Assembly (NCBI RefSeq): GCF_000176915.2
Contig: NC_014844.1
Location: forward strand, 1,116,001-1,180,000
Direction of reading: 5' to 3'
DNA length: 64,000 nucleotides
Source of the DNA: Pseudodesulfovibrio aespoeensis Aspo-2
GTDB lineage: Bacteria; Desulfobacterota; Desulfovibrionia; Desulfovibrionales; Desulfovibrionaceae
The notes beneath the pieces are model-generated. The model was not told the origin of the DNA. It worked only from the letters and a program-made list of their open reading frames with translations, and did not search any database. Shown here piece by piece: positions 5,627 through 46,186 of this stretch. Numbering within the stretch: position 1 is the stretch's first letter; the number at the start of each line of letters is the position of its first letter. A program made the position numbers and the translations under genes.

Positions 5627-7309
5627 ATGAGCGCACCACCACCGGAAGCCGGCGGCCCCCAACTGGACAAGGCCCAGCGGCTCACCGCCTACCAGCACAA
5701 GCTGCGCGCCCTCAAGGAGCGCTCCTCCCTGCGCGAGGTCATGGAGCGCGAGCTGCTGCTGGAATTCATCAGGGTCAACCACGCCAACATCAGCGAATAC
5801 CCGCTGCTCAAGGCCCAGCAGAGTAGCGTCATCGAGTTGCTCTGCGGCCGCACAGGGCATCCGGGCTACGAATACATCCACAAGCACGTCGCGGGATTCA
5901 TCGTCCAGCTTGGTCACTACGAGAAGGCGGTCAAGACCGGGGACACGGTTCGCGCCGACGAATTGCAGGCCGGGTTGCTGAACACCGAGTCCATGCTCAT
6001 CAAGTGCGTCCAGGGCATTGTCTATGCCATGGCCCTGATCACCGACAATTTCGAGGAGATCGTCCTCCATTACTTTGGCCAGGGCGCTCTCAAGGAATAC
6101 AGCGACCTGATCGAGAAGCATGAACTGAACGAGCGGTTCTGGAAGGCCTTTGTCCAGCAGTTCATCGCCATGCGCGTGGCTGGAGCCCATCGCGAAATCC
6201 TCGCCGGGGAGCGGTTTACCGTGACCAAGGAGAAGAACTTCCTGGTCATCCGGTTCCTGTTTGACGACATCCTGGCCCGGCTCAATCCCACGGACCAGAA
6301 AATCGAGAAGACGCGCATCCAGAAAAGCTATGTTGCCAGCCGCACCGAGTTCGACGGACGCAGGCGGGCCAAGCTCATCCAGACCGTGCTGACCAAGGGG
6401 CTGGCCGGGCTCTCCCAGGCCAGGGACATGACGGCTGGCGAACTGCTTCAGGCGGCCCGCATCGCCTGCATCGATCCGGTGGGGACCATTTTTGAAACCA
6501 CGTATGAAAAGCGCGCCCTGGACAGGGCCGCGTCAGGCGGACCGGGCGACCCGGAGCAGGCCAGACGGGAGCAGATCGAGTTCAAGTTCCTGATGGATCA
6601 GGTGGTGGCTGTCGGGCTTGGCGCAGCCATCGCCATTGGCCGGACCAGTGACCATTTCTACAACGCCCTCGAAGAGTTCGTGCCCGACCAGATCGAGGCC
6701 ATCCGCCCTCTGGCGCGGGATTTCAGCATCCCCACCCTGGAGAAGCTGCTTTTCTTTCTGCTCGAAAACCACACCATCCACATCCTCACGGAAACAGGCC
6801 GGGAAGAGGGCGGCAAGATCCAGGTGCGCAGCGGGCGCGCCCGGCGCGTGTCCAGCGCCACGGTGGACGGGCTGCCCGGCATGAGCAAGATCCGCAAGAC
6901 CCAGCTCTTTGCCAACGACACCACCCGCGAGGGCATGCTCCTGTTCAAGTCCAAGACCGGCAAGCAGCTGGCCGCGGCCACGGACATGCTCAGTCTCGAA
7001 CCCGACCTCAAGGAGCAGTTGTCCGCCCAGTGGAACGAGGCCATCTTCCGGGTGGACATCATGGTCCTGATCAATCTGGAGCAGGTGGTCAGGACGACCA
7101 CGAACCTCAAGGTGAAGCTGGGAGAGATCCTACAGAAATACGGCGTGGGCAGACGGGATGTCCAGCCCCAGGCCGCTGCCGTCGAACCAGGGTCGCCCGC
7201 GCCAGGGGGCGGGCCTGAAATCGAGCCAAAAATCGAACCAAAAATCGAGCCAGCGCCCGAGCCAGCATCCGAACCGAACACGCCCGACCCGGCTCCAGAC
7301 CCCGCCTGA
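5627..7309 (+). CDS. Large hypothetical protein with Pro/Glu-rich tail, 560 aa
   Basis: Not recognised. The ATG at 5627 has a GGGAG ribosome site five bases upstream; an in-frame GTG at 5603 has none. The protein is soluble, mostly helical in composition, and carries many charged residues. The last 40 or so residues are low-complexity, with repeated EPKI/EPAP units, and probably form a disordered extension. No catalytic motif was found. It lies alone between the HD gene and the convergent purU gene. Good codon use and length make it a confident gene of unknown role. Confidence 0.75.
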   Translation: MSAPPPEAGGPQLDKAQRLTAYQHKLRALKERSSLREVMERELLLEFIRVNHANISEYPLLKAQQSSVIELLCGRTGHPGYEYIHKHVAGFIVQLGHYEKAVKTGDTVRADELQAGLLNTESMLIKCVQGIVYAMALITDNFEEIVLHYFGQGALKEYSDLIEKHELNERFWKAFVQQFIAMRVAGAHREILAGERFTVTKEKNFLVIRFLFDDILARLNPTDQKIEKTRIQKSYVASRTEFDGRRRAKLIQTVLTKGLAGLSQARDMTAGELLQAARIACIDPVGTIFETTYEKRALDRAASGGPGDPEQARREQIEFKFLMDQVVAVGLGAAIAIGRTSDHFYNALEEFVPDQIEAIRPLARDFSIPTLEKLLFFLLENHTIHILTETGREEGGKIQVRSGRARRVSSATVDGLPGMSKIRKTQLFANDTTREGMLLFKSKTGKQLAAATDMLSLEPDLKEQLSAQWNEAIFRVDIMVLINLEQVVRTTTNLKVKLGEILQKYGVGRRDVQPQAAAVEPGSPAPGGGPEIEPKIEPKIEPAPEPASEPNTPDPAPDPA

Positions 7310-7352
7310 GCAGAATCCGTTCCGCTTGCCAGCGCATTTGTCTTCGATCCAG

Positions 7353-7378
7353 GCCACCGGTCTGGGCCACCGGTCTGG
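7353..7378. repeat. 13-bp tandem duplication
   Basis: The 13-mer GCCACCGGTCTGG occurs twice back to back in the gap between two convergent stop codons. Each copy is partly palindromic (ACCGGT). It is probably a simple slippage duplication. Confidence 0.6.
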
Positions 7379-7382
7379 GCCG

Positions 7383-8264
7383 CTATCTGGGAAAAACGAT
7401 GGTCTTGTTGCCGTCCACGATGACCCGGTCCTCCAGGTGCCACTTGACCGCCCTGGCCAGGACATGGCGCTCGATGTCTGCGCCCAGCCGCTTGAGGTCG
7501 TCGAGGTCGTGGCTATGCGTGACCCGGATGACGTCCTGCTCGATGATCGGCCCCTCGTCCAGCTCCTGGGTGACGTAGTGGGCTGTGGCCCCGATGAGCT
7601 TGACCCCGCGCTGGTGCGCCTTGCGGTAGGGGTCGGCCCCGACAAAGGCGGGCAGGAACGAGTGGTGGATGTTGATGATCTGGCGGTTGAAGCGGGCCAC
7701 GAAGTCCTGGGTCAGGATCTGCATGTACCGGGCCAGGACGATCAGGTCCGCCTGCCCCTCCATGAGGTCCATCATGGTGTCCTCGGCGCCGACCTTGTCG
7801 CGCAGGGTCGGCCCCACCGGAACGTGGTGAAAGGGCACGCCAAAATGCTCCACCGAGCCGCGCAGGTGCGGATGGTTGCTGATGACCATGGACACATCGG
7901 TCTCCAGGTCGCCCCGTTTCCACCGCCACAAGAGCTCCATCAGGGCGTGGTCCACCCTGGAGCAGAGGATGACCATCTTCTTCGGCTCCCAGACCGGGTT
8001 GAGGCTCCAGTCCATGATGAACCCGTTGCTGACCTGCCCGGCGAATTCCGCGCGCAACTGCTTGAGCCCGTCGAGATCAAGCCCCGGCAGGTAGAACTCG
8101 TTGCGCATGAAGAAGCGGCCCCCCTCGGGGTCGGTCGAGTGCTGGTTGGAGTGGATGATGTTGGCGTTCTTCCTGTGCAGGAATCCGCTGACAGCGGCCA
8201 CGATGCCGGGCTGGTCCGGGCAGGTGATGAGCAGCCGGACGGTGCTTTCCTTGGAGTCTGTCAT
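7383..8264 (-). CDS. purU: Formyltetrahydrofolate deformylase
   Basis: Cytosolic enzyme that hydrolyses 10-formyl-THF to formate and THF, balancing one-carbon pools and supplying formate for purine synthesis. 293 aa, normal family length. An N-terminal ACT domain ([19 protein letters not shown], residues 10-28) precedes the formyltransferase fold with [10 protein letters not shown] (catalytic Asn/His) near 205 and the conserved Asp in [14 protein letters not shown] chose the ATG at 8264 because alignment of the ACT domain begins there; the longer frame to 8342 adds atypical residues. It is divergent from gmhA, monocistronic. Confidence 0.95.
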
Positions 8265-38533: not shown

Positions 38534-39907
38534 ATGCTACTCAGACACACACCAACGGAAGTCGCTGACCGCAAGGCCCTGACCATCAATCCGGCCAAGA
38601 CCTGTCAGCCCATCGGAGCCATGTACGCCGCGCTCGGCATACACGGGTGCCTGCCGCACAGCCACGGCTCGCAGGGATGCTGCGCCTACCACCGCTCGGC
38701 CCTGACCCGGCACTACAAGGAGCCGGTCTCGGCAGCCACCAGCTCGTTCACCGAGGGCGCGTCGGTGTTCGGCGGCCAGGCCAACCTGCTTCAGGCCATC
38801 AACAACATCTTCACGGTCTATGAGCCGGAAGTCATCGCCGTGCACACCACCTGCCTCTCCGAGACCATCGGCGACGATCTCAACCAGATATTCGACAAGG
38901 CCCGCAGGGAGGGCAAGGTGCCCGAAGGGTGTACCCTGGTGGGTGCGCCCACGCCCAGCTACGTCGGCTCCCATGTGACCGGCTTCTCCAACATGGTCAA
39001 GGCCATGGCCCAGCTGGCCGAGCCTTCGGGCAAAAAGAGCGGCAAGGTCAACATCATTCCCGGCTGGGTCGAGCCCTCGGACATGGCCGAGATCAAGCGG
39101 CTGGCCGCCCTGGTCGGTGTGCCCGTGACCGTGTTCCCCGACACCTCCGGCGTGCTCGATGCCCCGCTCACTGGCGAGTACAAGATGTTCCCGGACGGCG
39201 GCGTGACCATCAAGGAACTCAAGGCCAGCGGCGATGCCACGGCCACCCTGGCCATGGGCGAGTGGTGCTCGGCAGATGCGGCGCGCTGGCTTGACGCCAA
39301 GTGCAAGGTGCCGTGCACCGTGCTCGACATGCCCTTTGGCCTGGCTGCCACCGACCGCTTCATCGATGTGCTGCGCACCGTGGCCGGGGTGACCGTGCCC
39401 GACGCCGTGGCAGTGGAGCGCGGTCAGCTCGTGGACCTCATCTCCGACATGCACCAGTACTTCTACGGCAAGCGCGTGGCCCTGTGGGGCGACCCGGACC
39501 AGCTCATCTCCATGTGCGAGTTCCTGGTCAGCCTCGACATGCAGCCCGCCTACGTGGTCACCGGCACGCCGGGCAAGAAGTTCGAGGAGCGCATCCGGGA
39601 TATCTGCGCTGGCAGGCCGTTCGAGGTCAAGGTCAAGGCCAAGGGCGACATGTTCCTGATGCACCAGTGGATCAAGAACGAGCCCGTGGACCTGCTTATC
39701 GGCAACTCCTACGGCAAGTACATCGCCCGCGACGAGGACATCCCGCTCTTGCGCTGGGGCTTCCCCATCCTGGACCGCCAGGGGCACCAGTACTTCCCCA
39801 CGGTCGGCTACAGGGGTGGCCTGCGTCTGCTCGAAAAGATGCTCGACCTGTTCCTCGACCGCAAGGACCGCGACGATCCGGAAACCTCCTTCGAACTCGT
39901 CCTCTAA
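38534..39907 (+). CDS. nifK: Nitrogenase molybdenum-iron protein beta chain
   Basis: 457 aa, shorter than proteobacterial NifK because the first 45-50 residues that wrap the alpha subunit are missing, as in Clostridium. P-cluster ligands are Cys24 (KTCQPIG), Cys49 (GSQGCCAYHR) and Cys107 (HTTCLSETIGDD). TPSYVGSH near residue 138 corresponds to the Ser region near the P-cluster. It starts 12 bases after nifD. Together with NifD it forms the alpha2beta2 nitrogenase component. Confidence 0.97.
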   Translation: MLLRHTPTEVADRKALTINPAKTCQPIGAMYAALGIHGCLPHSHGSQGCCAYHRSALTRHYKEPVSAATSSFTEGASVFGGQANLLQAINNIFTVYEPEVIAVHTTCLSETIGDDLNQIFDKARREGKVPEGCTLVGAPTPSYVGSHVTGFSNMVKAMAQLAEPSGKKSGKVNIIPGWVEPSDMAEIKRLAALVGVPVTVFPDTSGVLDAPLTGEYKMFPDGGVTIKELKASGDATATLAMGEWCSADAARWLDAKCKVPCTVLDMPFGLAATDRFIDVLRTVAGVTVPDAVAVERGQLVDLISDMHQYFYGKRVALWGDPDQLISMCEFLVSLDMQPAYVVTGTPGKKFEERIRDICAGRPFEVKVKAKGDMFLMHQWIKNEPVDLLIGNSYGKYIARDEDIPLLRWGFPILDRQGHQYFPTVGYRGGLRLLEKMLDLFLDRKDRDDPETSFELVL

Positions 39908-39993: not shown

Positions 39994-41199
39994 ATGGCGA
40001 CCACTTCTTCCTTCAGCTCTCTGCATCCCTGTTTCGGGAACGGCTCGCGCCGGATTGTTGGCCGGTTGCACCTGCCCGTGGCCCCGCGCGCCAACACCCG
40101 CATCCGTTTTGCCCCGGCCCCGGCGGCAACACCGGCCATGACACCTGAAGAAGGGCTGGCCCTGGTCGACCGCACGCTGGAGCACGGCGTGGCCGTGGAC
40201 ATGGTGGGCATCACCGGCCCCGGCGACCCGCTGGCCACGCCCGAGACGACTCTGCGCACCCTGCGGCTGGTCCGGGACAAGTACCCGGACATGGGGCTGT
40301 GCCTGACCACCGTGGGCATGGGCGGCGCGCCCGTGGCCGGGGAGCTGGCCGCGCTGGGCCTGTCCCACGTCACCGTGTTGTCGGACGCCGTGTCCGCCGG
40401 GGTGGCCGAGGGTTTGTACGCCTGGATTCGTCCCTCCACCCGGACCGTGCCGCTGCCCCAGGCTGCCCGGACCCTCGTGGACGAGCAGCGTCAGGCCGTG
40501 GCCGCGTTCGTCGAGGCCGGACTGACCGTCAAGATCAACACCACGCTCTATCCCGGCCACAACGCGGATCACGTGGAAACCATCGCCCGGACCATGGCCG
40601 GGCTGGGCGCGTCGATCATGGCCGTGGTTCCCTTCTGGCCCGGCGGAGAAGAGGGCGGGAAAAGGGCCGAGGCCGTGTCCGGACCGGACATGGACCTGCT
40701 CGATTCGGTCCGCGAGAGGGTGGCCGGCCACATCAGCCTCATGCCCTCCTGGGGCGAGTGTGGGCGGGATCTGGTCGGCCTGGAAAAGGGGGATGCCTCC
40801 ATGATGGCATTGGCGGTGGCGTCGGTGGTGGCGTCGGCGACGCTGCCCCGGCCCGTTGCCGGGCGGCCCAACGTGGCCGTGGCCAGCGCAAGCGGCATGG
40901 ACGTGGACCTGCACCTGGGCCACGCGGTCAAGCTGCTCATCTACGGCCCGCGCGAGGACGGGCTGGCCTGTCTGCTCGAAACCCGCGACGCCCCGGAGCC
41001 GGGGGGCGGGACCAGCCGGTGGGAGACCCTGGCCGACACGCTGGGCGACTGTTTCGCCCTGCTCGCGGCCAGCGCCGGGGAAAGCCCCAGGGAGATTTTG
41101 AGCCGTCGCGGCGTGGCCGTCCTGATCACCGAAGGCGAGATCGAGGGGACCGTGGACGCGCTCTACGGCGGCGGCAGAAAGGGAAGGGGCCGCAAGTAG
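39994..41199 (+). CDS. NifB paralogue lacking radical-SAM cysteines
   Basis: 401 aa, aligned by eye over its full length with the NifB encoded at 44472. Kept: HPC at residues 11-13, GRLHLPVAP, ITGPGDP (SAM-binding loop in NifB), LGLSHVT, TVKINTTLYPG, and a C-terminal NifX-like domain (from RPNVAVASASGMDVDLHLG). Lost: the three Cys that bind the SAM cluster (NifB Cys31, 35, 38 align with Ala33, Ile37, Ala40), Cys20 (Val22), and the late CKRC (WGEC). It cannot make NifB-cofactor by radical chemistry. The frame is intact and AAGGCGG precedes the ATG, so it is probably a carrier or scaffold rather than a decaying gene. Confidence 0.85.
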   Translation: MATTSSFSSLHPCFGNGSRRIVGRLHLPVAPRANTRIRFAPAPAATPAMTPEEGLALVDRTLEHGVAVDMVGITGPGDPLATPETTLRTLRLVRDKYPDMGLCLTTVGMGGAPVAGELAALGLSHVTVLSDAVSAGVAEGLYAWIRPSTRTVPLPQAARTLVDEQRQAVAAFVEAGLTVKINTTLYPGHNADHVETIARTMAGLGASIMAVVPFWPGGEEGGKRAEAVSGPDMDLLDSVRERVAGHISLMPSWGECGRDLVGLEKGDASMMALAVASVVASATLPRPVAGRPNVAVASASGMDVDLHLGHAVKLLIYGPREDGLACLLETRDAPEPGGGTSRWETLADTLGDCFALLAASAGESPREILSRRGVAVLITEGEIEGTVDALYGGGRKGRGRK

Positions 41200-41230: not shown

Positions 41231-41530
41231 ATGGCTACCCCCGCAAAAATGATCATCTGTTGTCAGAGCTTCCGCGCCCAGGGCGATCCCAAGGGTATCT
41301 GTCACAAGCAGACCGATGGTTTTCTCCAGTACATCGAAGAGGAGATTCTCGACCGGGGCATCGACGCCCAGGTGGTGGCCTCCACCTGCCTCAAGCAGTG
41401 CGAGTCCGGCCCCATCATGGTCGTTCAGCCTGAGAACTGGTGGTTCAAGGGCGTTGCCAGCGAGGAGGCCATCGACGCTATCCTCGACGGCCTGGAAGCC
41501 GGCGAGCAGTGCGCAGAGTTCGCGCTGTAG
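41231..41530 (+). CDS. Thioredoxin-like [2Fe-2S] ferredoxin, nif-associated
   Basis: 99 aa. The cluster motif is spread as in this fold: Cys10-11 and Cys24 (GICHKQ), then TCLKQCESGP with Cys53 and Cys57, and a late Cys95. The PENWWFKGV segment near 67 is typical of the nif-linked Shethna-type ferredoxin family. It lies between the NifB paralogue and nifE and may feed electrons to cofactor assembly or interact with nitrogenase. Strong AAGGAG ribosome site before the ATG. Confidence 0.88.
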   Translation: MATPAKMIICCQSFRAQGDPKGICHKQTDGFLQYIEEEILDRGIDAQVVASTCLKQCESGPIMVVQPENWWFKGVASEEAIDAILDGLEAGEQCAEFAL

Positions 41531-44471: not shown

Positions 44472-45743
44472 ATGGCCGCCAAGGACATCACCAGGCATCC
44501 CTGTTTCAACAAGGAAACCGCTGGCACCTGTGGCCGGGTCCACCTGCCCGTGGCCCCCAAGTGCAATATCCAGTGCAACTACTGCAACCGCAAGTACGAC
44601 TGCGTCAACGAGTCGCGCCCTGGCGTGACCAGCGGCATACTCAAGCCGTTCCAGGCCGCGCAGTACATGGACAAGGTGCTTGAGAAGGAGCCGCGTATCA
44701 CCGTGGCCGGCATCGCCGGACCGGGCGATCCCTTTGCCAATCCCGCCGAGGTCATCGAGACCATGCGGCTGCTCAACGAGCGCCACCCGGAGCTGCTCTT
44801 TTGTCTGTCCACCAACGGCATGGGCATTCTTCCATATCTGGACGACATCGCGGCCCTGGGCGTGTCCCACGTGACCATCACCATCTCTGCCGTGGACCCG
44901 GCCATCGGGGCCAGGATCTATGCCTGGGTCAAGGACGGCAACGTGGTCTACCGGGGCGAGCAGGGTGCGGCCCTGCTGCTTGAGCGTCAGCTGGCCGCCA
45001 TCAGGGGGCTCAAGGAGCGCGGCATCGTGGTCAAGATCAACTCCATCATCATCCCCGGCGTCAACGAGGGCCATCTTGTGGAGGTGGCCCGCGTCACCGC
45101 CGCGCTGGGGGCGGACATCCAGAACATGATTCCCCTCAAGCCCACCCAGGACACGCCCTTTGCCGAACTGCCCGAGCCGGGCCGCGACGTGGTCCTGCCC
45201 CTGCGCAAGGAGGCGGGCGGGTTCATCAGCCAGATGACCCACTGCAAGCGGTGCCGGGCCGATGCTGTGGGGCTGCTCGGCAACGACCAGTCCGCAGCCC
45301 TGTGCGGCACGCTCCAGGCATGTGCCAAGCTCAAGCCCCTGGAGGCCGGGGCTGCGCGCCCCCATGTGGCTGTGGCCACCCGCGAGGGCATGCTGGTCAA
45401 CCAGCACCTGGGCGAGGCCAAGACCTTTCAGATATGGGGACCGGACGGGAGCGGCTACCGCCTGATCGAGGAGCGGCAGGCCCCGGCGGCAGGCTGCGGC
45501 CCGCAGCGCTGGGCCGATCTGGCCGCGCTGCTCAAGGACTGTCGCGCGGTCGTGGCTGCGGCCATGGGCGAGACGCCGAGGATGCTGCTGGAGGAACACG
45601 GCGTGGCCCCGCACAGCGTCACCGGGTTTATCGAGGACGCGCTCCGGGCGATCTATGAAACCGGCGACCTGAAGGCGCTCAAGGGACGGCGCGGCGGCAT
45701 CGCGGGCGGCTGCTGCACCGGCACGGGCGTCAGCTGCGGCTAA
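44472..45743 (+). CDS. nifB: Radical SAM NifB-cofactor synthase with NifX-like tail
   Basis: 423 aa. Radical SAM cluster Cys31-x3-Cys35-x2-Cys38 in APKCNIQCNYCNRKYDC; extra cluster ligands Cys11 (HPC), Cys20 (TCGRVH) and CKRC near 258. AGIAGPGDPFANP is the SAM contact. After residue 300 a NifX/NafY-like domain (HVAVATREGMLVNQHLGEA) follows, as in many NifB proteins, ending in a Cys/Gly-rich GGCCTGTGVSCG tail that may hold a metal. It builds the [8Fe-9S-C] precursor delivered to NifEN. This copy is complete, unlike the paralogue at 39994. Confidence 0.96.
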   Translation: MAAKDITRHPCFNKETAGTCGRVHLPVAPKCNIQCNYCNRKYDCVNESRPGVTSGILKPFQAAQYMDKVLEKEPRITVAGIAGPGDPFANPAEVIETMRLLNERHPELLFCLSTNGMGILPYLDDIAALGVSHVTITISAVDPAIGARIYAWVKDGNVVYRGEQGAALLLERQLAAIRGLKERGIVVKINSIIIPGVNEGHLVEVARVTAALGADIQNMIPLKPTQDTPFAELPEPGRDVVLPLRKEAGGFISQMTHCKRCRADAVGLLGNDQSAALCGTLQACAKLKPLEAGAARPHVAVATREGMLVNQHLGEAKTFQIWGPDGSGYRLIEERQAPAAGCGPQRWADLAALLKDCRAVVAAAMGETPRMLLEEHGVAPHSVTGFIEDALRAIYETGDLKALKGRRGGIAGGCCTGTGVSCG

Positions 45744-45882: not shown

Positions 45883-46128
45883 ATGAACAGGGCCACGCTT
45901 GAGAAGGTGTTCGAGTACGCGTCCAGGCCGGTGCAGGGGACCATGTCCCGCAAGCTGCGCAAGGATGTGAAGATTCAGGTCAATGAAGGCGAGGTGTACG
46001 AGGCTGCGACCCTCTTCCTGGGCGAGGAGTTCATCCGCGTCACCGCTGTCAGGGATGGCGTGGCCATGAACACCTATTACGACTGGGACAAGATCGCCTC
46101 GGTCCGCACCCTCGGTCCTGCGGAATAG
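45883..46128 (+). CDS. Small soluble protein at the end of the nif cluster, 81 aa
   Basis: Not recognised. Basic N-terminus with a helix (TLEKVFEYASRP), then beta-like strands (KIQVNEGEVYEAATLFLGEEFIRVTAV) and a C-terminal TYYDWDKIASVRTLG. No cysteine, so not a cluster carrier. An AGGAG site precedes the ATG. It lies between a hairpin and a strong terminator and may be a distal nif gene or a separate transcript. The folded, non-repetitive sequence and good codon use support translation. Confidence 0.7.
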   Translation: MNRATLEKVFEYASRPVQGTMSRKLRKDVKIQVNEGEVYEAATLFLGEEFIRVTAVRDGVAMNTYYDWDKIASVRTLGPAE

Positions 46129-46149: not shown

Positions 46150-46186
46150 GACGCCCCCGCGCACGTGCGCGGGGGCGTCTTTTGGT
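46150..46186 (+). terminator. Strong intrinsic terminator of the nif cluster
   Basis: Perfect 13-base stem (GACGCCCCCGCGC and complement) around ACGT, followed by TTTTGGTTT. This is the clearest end signal for the nif transcripts. Confidence 0.9.

Follow-up and report, generated by a model that had tools for sequence, protein, structure and literature searches.

A conserved NifB paralogue without the radical-SAM motif, a candidate cofactor escort in the nif operon of Pseudodesulfovibrio aespoeensis Aspo-2

Introduction

Why would a nif operon that encodes a genuine NifB also carry, directly after nifK, a second full-length NifB-like gene whose product lacks the radical-SAM motif? The question is raised by a gene in a 64,000-nucleotide window (the whole stretch of DNA that was analysed) from the genome of P. 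aespoeensis Aspo-2, which consists of a single contig of 3.63 Mb. We refer to the gene product, a NifB paralogue that lacks the radical-SAM motif, as PSB. Efforts to engineer nitrogen fixation target the assembly of FeMo-co, and the transfer of NifB-co from one protein to the next is being actively studied (PMC13128457, 2026).

In a 2017 survey of NifB, 28% of the sequences annotated as NifB were excluded, most of them lacking Cx3Cx2C; the excluded sequences without the motif each had a NifX domain and were thought by its authors to be NifX (PMC5715403). The PSB family fits this description of the excluded set, yet it is a full-length NifB paralogue with a slot of its own. No published description of the family was found in a literature search conducted mainly at the title and abstract level, with most subscription journals outside its scope.

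Materials and Methods

Orthologues were sought in a family sample of 199 genomes of the Desulfovibrionaceae, of which 113 encode nifE above the cut-off, and in 395 genomes drawn from across the phylum. The alignment comprised 81 distinct PSB orthologues and 117 NifB-side sequences, the latter including three unusual slot paralogues. Open reading frames (ORFs) shorter than 330 amino acids and matches spanning fewer than 300 residues were dropped, and sequences sharing the same last 250 residues were counted as one. The numbering of the K-cluster ligands Cys30, His43, Cys63, Cys129, Cys274, and Cys277 was carried over from M. acetivorans NifB by motif spacing.

Results

The gene had been described, from the sequence alone, as an intact and well-placed frame whose product aligns end to end with the NifB of the same operon, and both points hold. 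The frame runs uninterrupted from its ATG to its stop (Table 1) between nifK and a 2Fe-2S ferredoxin-like gene (Fdx), in the order nifH, two glnB-like genes, nifD, nifK, the PSB gene, Fdx, nifE, nifN, and nifB, and PSB is 37% identical to the operon's NifB across residues 9-394. Against the NCBI NifB model TIGR01290, PSB scores 166.9 bits, which is below the curated cut-off of 343.65. A Pfam scan returned Nitro_FeMo-Co (PF02579) at 33 bits, above its cut-off of 26.3, and Radical_SAM (PF04055) at 24.5 bits, below its cut-off of 29.5, and nothing else; a small N-terminal NafY domain was not among the matches. GPGDP is present, and residues 3-262 are predicted to adopt the NifB barrel fold, with VIA-align rows on the PSB fold covering mainly residues 13-274 rather than the NifX domain. 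GPGDP, the barrel, and the NifX-like tail thus remain, as had been noticed.

Table 1. Positions of the PSB gene, its neighbours, and its mapped residues in the window, and of the slot paralogues that retain the radical-SAM motif at other loci.
Feature	Position	Strand	Remarks
PSB gene	39994..41199	+	401 aa
nifK, upstream neighbour of the PSB gene	38543..39907	+	Frame open from 38534
Fdx, 2Fe-2S ferredoxin-like gene, downstream neighbour	41231..41530	+	Best NCBIfam match NF041612, 46.4 bits, below the cut-off of 150
nifB, the operon's genuine copy	44472..45743	+	TIGR01290 386 bits, cut-off 343.65
Cys13 codon, K1 Cys30 equivalent	40030..40032	+	Cys in 56/81 orthologues
His26 codon, K1 His43 equivalent	40069..40071	+	His in 43/81 orthologues
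Place of the lost Cx3Cx2C (Ala33, Ile37, Ala40)	40090..40113	+	By alignment
Cys103 codon, K1 Cys129 equivalent	40300..40302	+	Cys in 37/81 orthologues
Cys256 codon, K2 Cys277 equivalent	40759..40761	+	Cys in 40/81 orthologues
NifX-type (Nitro_FeMo-Co) domain of PSB	40858..41166	+	Approximately residues 289-391
His307 codon (His-Leu-Gly)	40912..40914	+	81/81; aligned with NifX H35 and NafY H121
SAM-retaining slot paralogue, G051	L047 7933-9120	+	
SAM-retaining slot paralogue, G015	L051 9026-10234	-	
SAM-retaining slot paralogue, G010	L069 about 6498-7860	-	

Scanning of the + strand from nifK to nifE revealed no terminator-like site, with scan counts equal to those of shuffles. A strong-looking site on the + strand lies at 46150-46179, the counts of the promoter and terminator scans being no different from shuffles. 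Two further features were observed at this end of the operon. An 81-aa ORF 3' of nifB (45883-46128) matches nothing in Pfam or NCBIfam; relatives with 50-84% identity adjoin a number of other nif clusters. The operon's NifB ends in a Cys/Gly-rich tail (45670-45743), and at least two Cys are found in the last 16 residues of 105 of the 117 NifB-side sequences.

The three radical-SAM cysteines of NifB align with Ala33, Ile37, and Ala40 of PSB, in agreement with the preliminary description. No orthologue has Cys at the first of these positions, and in seven of 81 either the second or the third, but not both, is Cys; all three cysteines are kept in 117/117 NifB-side sequences. As judged from this alignment, the radical-SAM function of PSB is gone. 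We also considered whether PSB might be a NifB with a displaced SAM motif, and this was ruled out, given that Cx3Cx2C occurs in 0/81 orthologues, anywhere in the sequence.

The ligands of the K clusters have fared differently. For M. acetivorans NifB, Cys30, Cys63, Cys129, and His43 are reported as ligands of K1 and Cys264, Cys274, and Cys277 as ligands of K2 (PMC6053413, PMC7145814). PSB had been called 'cysteine-less', a label that has to be withdrawn since Cys13, Cys103, and Cys256 (together with His26) are aligned with K-cluster ligands. The accompanying statement that further cluster ligands, Cys20 and CKRC, have changed too does not hold for PSB in general: these four residues are kept, Cys256 being the second Cys of CKRC. 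The first Cys of the NifB CKRC (Trp253 in PSB) and the Cys63 equivalent are lost. PSB is without equivalents of Cys63 and Cys274, and therefore has neither the full K1 nor the full K2 ligand set. The position of NifB Cys20 is Val22 in PSB; among the 117 NifB-side sequences it is Cys in just 48 and Phe in 41, which indicates that Cys20 is no general ligand.

Across the orthologues, Cys13, His26, Cys103, and Cys256 are all kept in 30/81, at least one is missing in 51/81, and none is kept in 16/81. The same four residues are 97-100% conserved, against an average of 62% for residues 1-50, in a core set of 29 sequences that was picked by similarity to the window's PSB and in which Leu27 and Val29-Pro31, neighbours of the K-site residues, are equally conserved. 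GPG is retained in the barrel of 77/77 orthologues in a comparison that left out four divergent orthologues and the three SAM-retaining paralogues.

Invariant residues were identified in the C-terminal part of PSB, where His307 and Cys353 are each found in 81/81 orthologues. A profile of 14 PSB-family tails matched the NafY core (1p90; E 5.7e-6, 29.5 bits) and NifX (9ian; E 8.4e-5, 25.7 bits) in the PDB, and in this alignment His307 falls on the HFG histidine of both structures. NifX (9ian_F) was also among the Foldseek matches of the predicted PSB model. These histidines are reported to be cofactor ligands, A. vinelandii NifX H35 ligating NifB-co (PMC13128457) and NafY H121 ligating FeMo-co (PMC8496260). 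PSB shares with the NifX/NafY escorts a Nitro_FeMo-Co domain that carries the ligand His, with the motif being His-Leu-Gly and not HFG. However, the equivalent of His307 is present in 116/117 NifB-side sequences too, and the invariant His is therefore a hallmark of the domain, not of a new function. The NifX model TIGR02663 had no match in PSB at E 0.001 and matched 2/14 orthologues at this threshold. The C-terminal tail of the family is basic (mean of 5.1 K/R in the last 16 residues); a phmmer search of the PDB with the isolated PSB tail returned 0 matches, and for the tail of NifB itself the only matches were weak ones to a polyketide synthase.

PSB is under purifying selection, which is weaker than that on NifB. 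Nei-Gojobori dN/dS ranged from 0.072 to 0.273 among the 16 closest PSB pairs and from 0.054 to 0.145 among nine NifB pairs. At loci where both genes are visible (26 genomes, 325 pairs that are not independent), the mean identity of PSB was 0.363 in residues 1-50, 0.468 in the barrel, 0.268 in the linker, and 0.580 in the NifX domain; the corresponding values for NifB were 0.743, 0.646, 0.546, and 0.587. The NifX domain exceeded the barrel in identity in 306/325 PSB pairs versus 52/325 NifB pairs. In PSB, it is the NifX domain and no longer the barrel that bears the greater constraint.

PSB homologs were detected in at least 54 of the 113 nifE-bearing family genomes, 47 of these from inspected sequences and seven from the match list alone (G066, G085, G096, G112, G153, G159, G182). 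Outside of the family, at least 14 genomes of the phylum-wide draw encode PSB (G213, G250, G284, G339, G365, G388, G450, G470, G488, G507, G524, G541, G549, G559). Holders include P. pelocollis SB368 and the same-genus genome G004, Desulforhopalus sp. IMCC35007, Desulfogranum japonicum, Candidatus Electrothrix aarhusensis, and Humidesulfovibrio MAGs. Occurrence in this strain only, under relaxed selection, was the outcome that the preliminary description had set against its own reading. A single-strain relic is ruled out by the 81 distinct orthologues and by dN/dS values of 0.07-0.27 in the 16 closest pairs.

The survey of nif clusters for the same gene order that had been proposed recovered nifK-PSB-Fdx in 18/18, 34/35, and 17/17 loci (three overlapping sets), and L048, which was scored as NifB in the 18-locus set, fits this slot too. 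Only Ca. Electrothrix (L110) deviates: Fdx lies downstream of PSB there, but nifK was not found upstream. PSB is absent from eight family loci in which both nifK and Fdx are visible (L053, L056, L060, L064-L066, L070, L071), two of which (L070 and L071) belong to genus g21, whose genomes G021 and G132 do have PSB. It is also absent from N. vulgaris RCH1 and DP4. Separately, we noted that four of the loci without PSB (L064, L065, L070, L071) carry an ORF of ~150-170 aa between Fdx and nifE that by eye is GNAT acetyltransferase-like, and that the plasmid nifB of RCH1 (L220 9001-10527) is annotated as a short NifX-type piece and matched in two pieces, unlike nifB of DP4 (L221), which is annotated whole.

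NifX above the NCBI cut-off was detected in none of the 199 family genomes, PSB carriers and non-carriers alike; NifX-like proteins in G106 and G174 came close, with 93.6 and 95.8 of the 112 bits required. Because genomes without PSB also lack an above-cut-off NifX, PSB is not a simple filler of a NifX gap, and the idea that it replaces NifX wherever the latter is lost is ruled out. The host genome encodes six PF02579 matches beyond NifB and PSB, and may thus have another carrier.

A quick tree of 97 of the 198 rows grouped 43 NifB as one clade (support 100) and placed 51 PSB orthologues on one side of a branch with a support of only 77. The divergent L048-L050 and L063 and the three SAM-retaining slot paralogues fell nearer to NifB, a position in which long branches may mislead. 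An origin of PSB inside the clade to which the NifB of these bacteria belongs was not rejected by an AU test (p 0.646); a tree constrained to this origin outscored the unconstrained quick tree by 11 log units. The paralogues of G010, G015, and G051 occupy the slot between nifK and Fdx as PSB does, but unlike PSB they keep Cx3Cx2C and have lost the Cys30 and Cys129 equivalents; the quick tree unites them in a clade (99) distinct from that of NifB. They may represent a stage of the slot paralogue at which the SAM motif was still present, or they may stem from a duplication of their own.

Other arrangements of nifB were observed during the survey. In L082-L089 (groups g40, g19, g26), the end of NifN is followed by NifB in single open frames, and these are NifN-NifB fusions in Desulfovibrionaceae; such fusions were reported to be confined to Firmicutes (PMC5715403). 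In two Nitrospirota MAGs (L158, L166), a weakly NifB/NifX-like frame adjoins nifB, with 47 and 55 bits to NifB and no SAM motif, and is perhaps a separate NifX.

Discussion

PSB differs from the two-domain bacterial NifB represented by TIGR01290 in lacking Cx3Cx2C and the Cys63 equivalent, in reaching half of the bits needed, in its slot, and in the shift of constraint to its tail. With NifX it shares a NifX-type domain carrying the ligand His, but NifX has ~158 residues whereas PSB has ~400 with an inactive NifB barrel, a basic tail, and no match to TIGR02663. NafY and NifY are, like PSB, two-part proteins with a Nitro_FeMo-Co domain and a ligand His; their N-terminal part is a small NafY N domain, whereas that of PSB is a NifB barrel.

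The part of PSB under the strongest selection is its NifX-type domain, and the enzymatic part of NifB is gone. On these grounds, we suggest that PSB is probably, although with modest confidence, a catalytically dead NifB that was turned into a cofactor escort of the NifX/NafY type. In this reading, His307 of the NifX-type domain would bind the [8Fe-9S-C] NifB-co, or FeMo-co in its finished state, and the inactivated barrel would remain as a docking body. In the Desulfovibrionaceae clade, the barrel also keeps part of the NifB K-cluster pocket (Cys13, His26, Cys103, Cys256). We infer cofactor binding, partners, and the direction of transfer from sequence. The earlier proposal that the gene has been retained for a non-catalytic role is well supported, in that PSB is widespread and under purifying selection. 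Among the three roles that had been listed, carrying NifB-cofactor, chaperoning NifDK, and regulating NifB, the first is best supported because constraint and the invariant His sit in the NifX-type domain, and the last gained no specific support.

The likelier leg of transfer, which we put forward tentatively, would be from NifB to NifEN, favoured by the NifB ancestry of PSB and by the lack of an above-cut-off NifX in the family genomes. Delivery to apo-NifDK, favoured by the slot directly after nifK and by the slightly better NafY score, appears somewhat unlikely. Escorts can matter, given that nitrogenase activity is reported as <10% in a cyanobacterium without NifX and NafY (PMC6428710). 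The loci without PSB, namely the eight in the family and those of N. vulgaris RCH1 and DP4, argue against an essential role. The retention of GPG in every orthologue compared would count against the escort reading, as a pure carrier need not explain it. The acidic NifE tether of NifX (PMC13128457) has no visible counterpart in the PSB family, in which the tail is basic.

Overlapping with the escort reading, although rather unlikely in itself, is a NafY/NifY-like chaperone that would bind apo-NifDK by way of the dead barrel and aid FeMo-co insertion. The PSB gene directly follows nifK in all loci examined but one, a place that recalls that of nifY in A. vinelandii. The tail profile also scores higher on NafY than on NifX, but the difference is small. 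NafY and NifY are reported to bind the cofactor-free MoFe protein ahead of FeMo-co insertion (PMC6016461); however, the barrel of PSB is of NifB descent, and Pfam finds no NafY-type N-terminal domain in it.

Less probable still is that PSB acts as a partner or regulator of NifB, pairing with it or competing for its docking sites and thereby tuning NifB-co synthesis while carrying no cofactor itself. It is common for an inactive paralogue to pair with its active counterpart, and PSB is a full-length paralogue within the same operon. Nothing specific speaks against such a role, but the strongest constraint in PSB lies in the NifX domain and not in the barrel, and M. acetivorans NifB, which is without the NifX domain, is reported as a monomer (PMC7145814).

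The retained K-site residues bear on two further readings. The first extends the escort reading to a two-site carrier, which we regard as doubtful, in which Cys13, His26, Cys103, and Cys256 would also grasp the [8Fe-9S-C] cluster once it is complete. In the form found in Desulfovibrionaceae, the inactive barrel would accept the product of its sister NifB in the old active-site pocket, and the cluster would then pass via the NifX domain of PSB to NifEN or NifDK. In the second, the pocket does the work and the NifX tail is secondary, with the four residues storing or relaying a [4Fe-4S] or 8Fe cluster. Their joint presence in 30 orthologues and their conservation in the core set favour this reading, but that set was chosen by similarity and neighbouring residues are just as conserved within it, and the residues are lost, in part or altogether, from many orthologues that all keep His307. 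A working pocket of this kind is improbable and could hold only for the clade of the window protein.

Finally, that PSB is a decaying, functionless duplicate is highly improbable: the N-terminal part and the linker evolve fast, dN/dS lies above that of the NifB pairs, and some relatives have lost the gene, but the dN/dS values remain low, all 81 frames are open, constraint on the NifX domain equals that in NifB, His307 and Cys353 are invariant, and PSB occurs well outside the family.

If PSB is indeed a catalytically dead NifB that escorts cofactor, it would be a conserved extra component of FeMo-co assembly in the Desulfobacterota, built from a cofactor-making enzyme, that gene lists may miss. 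Within such lists, the carrier would be open to mislabelling as NifB or NifX. It would also be a clear example of how an enzyme can become the escort of what it once made.
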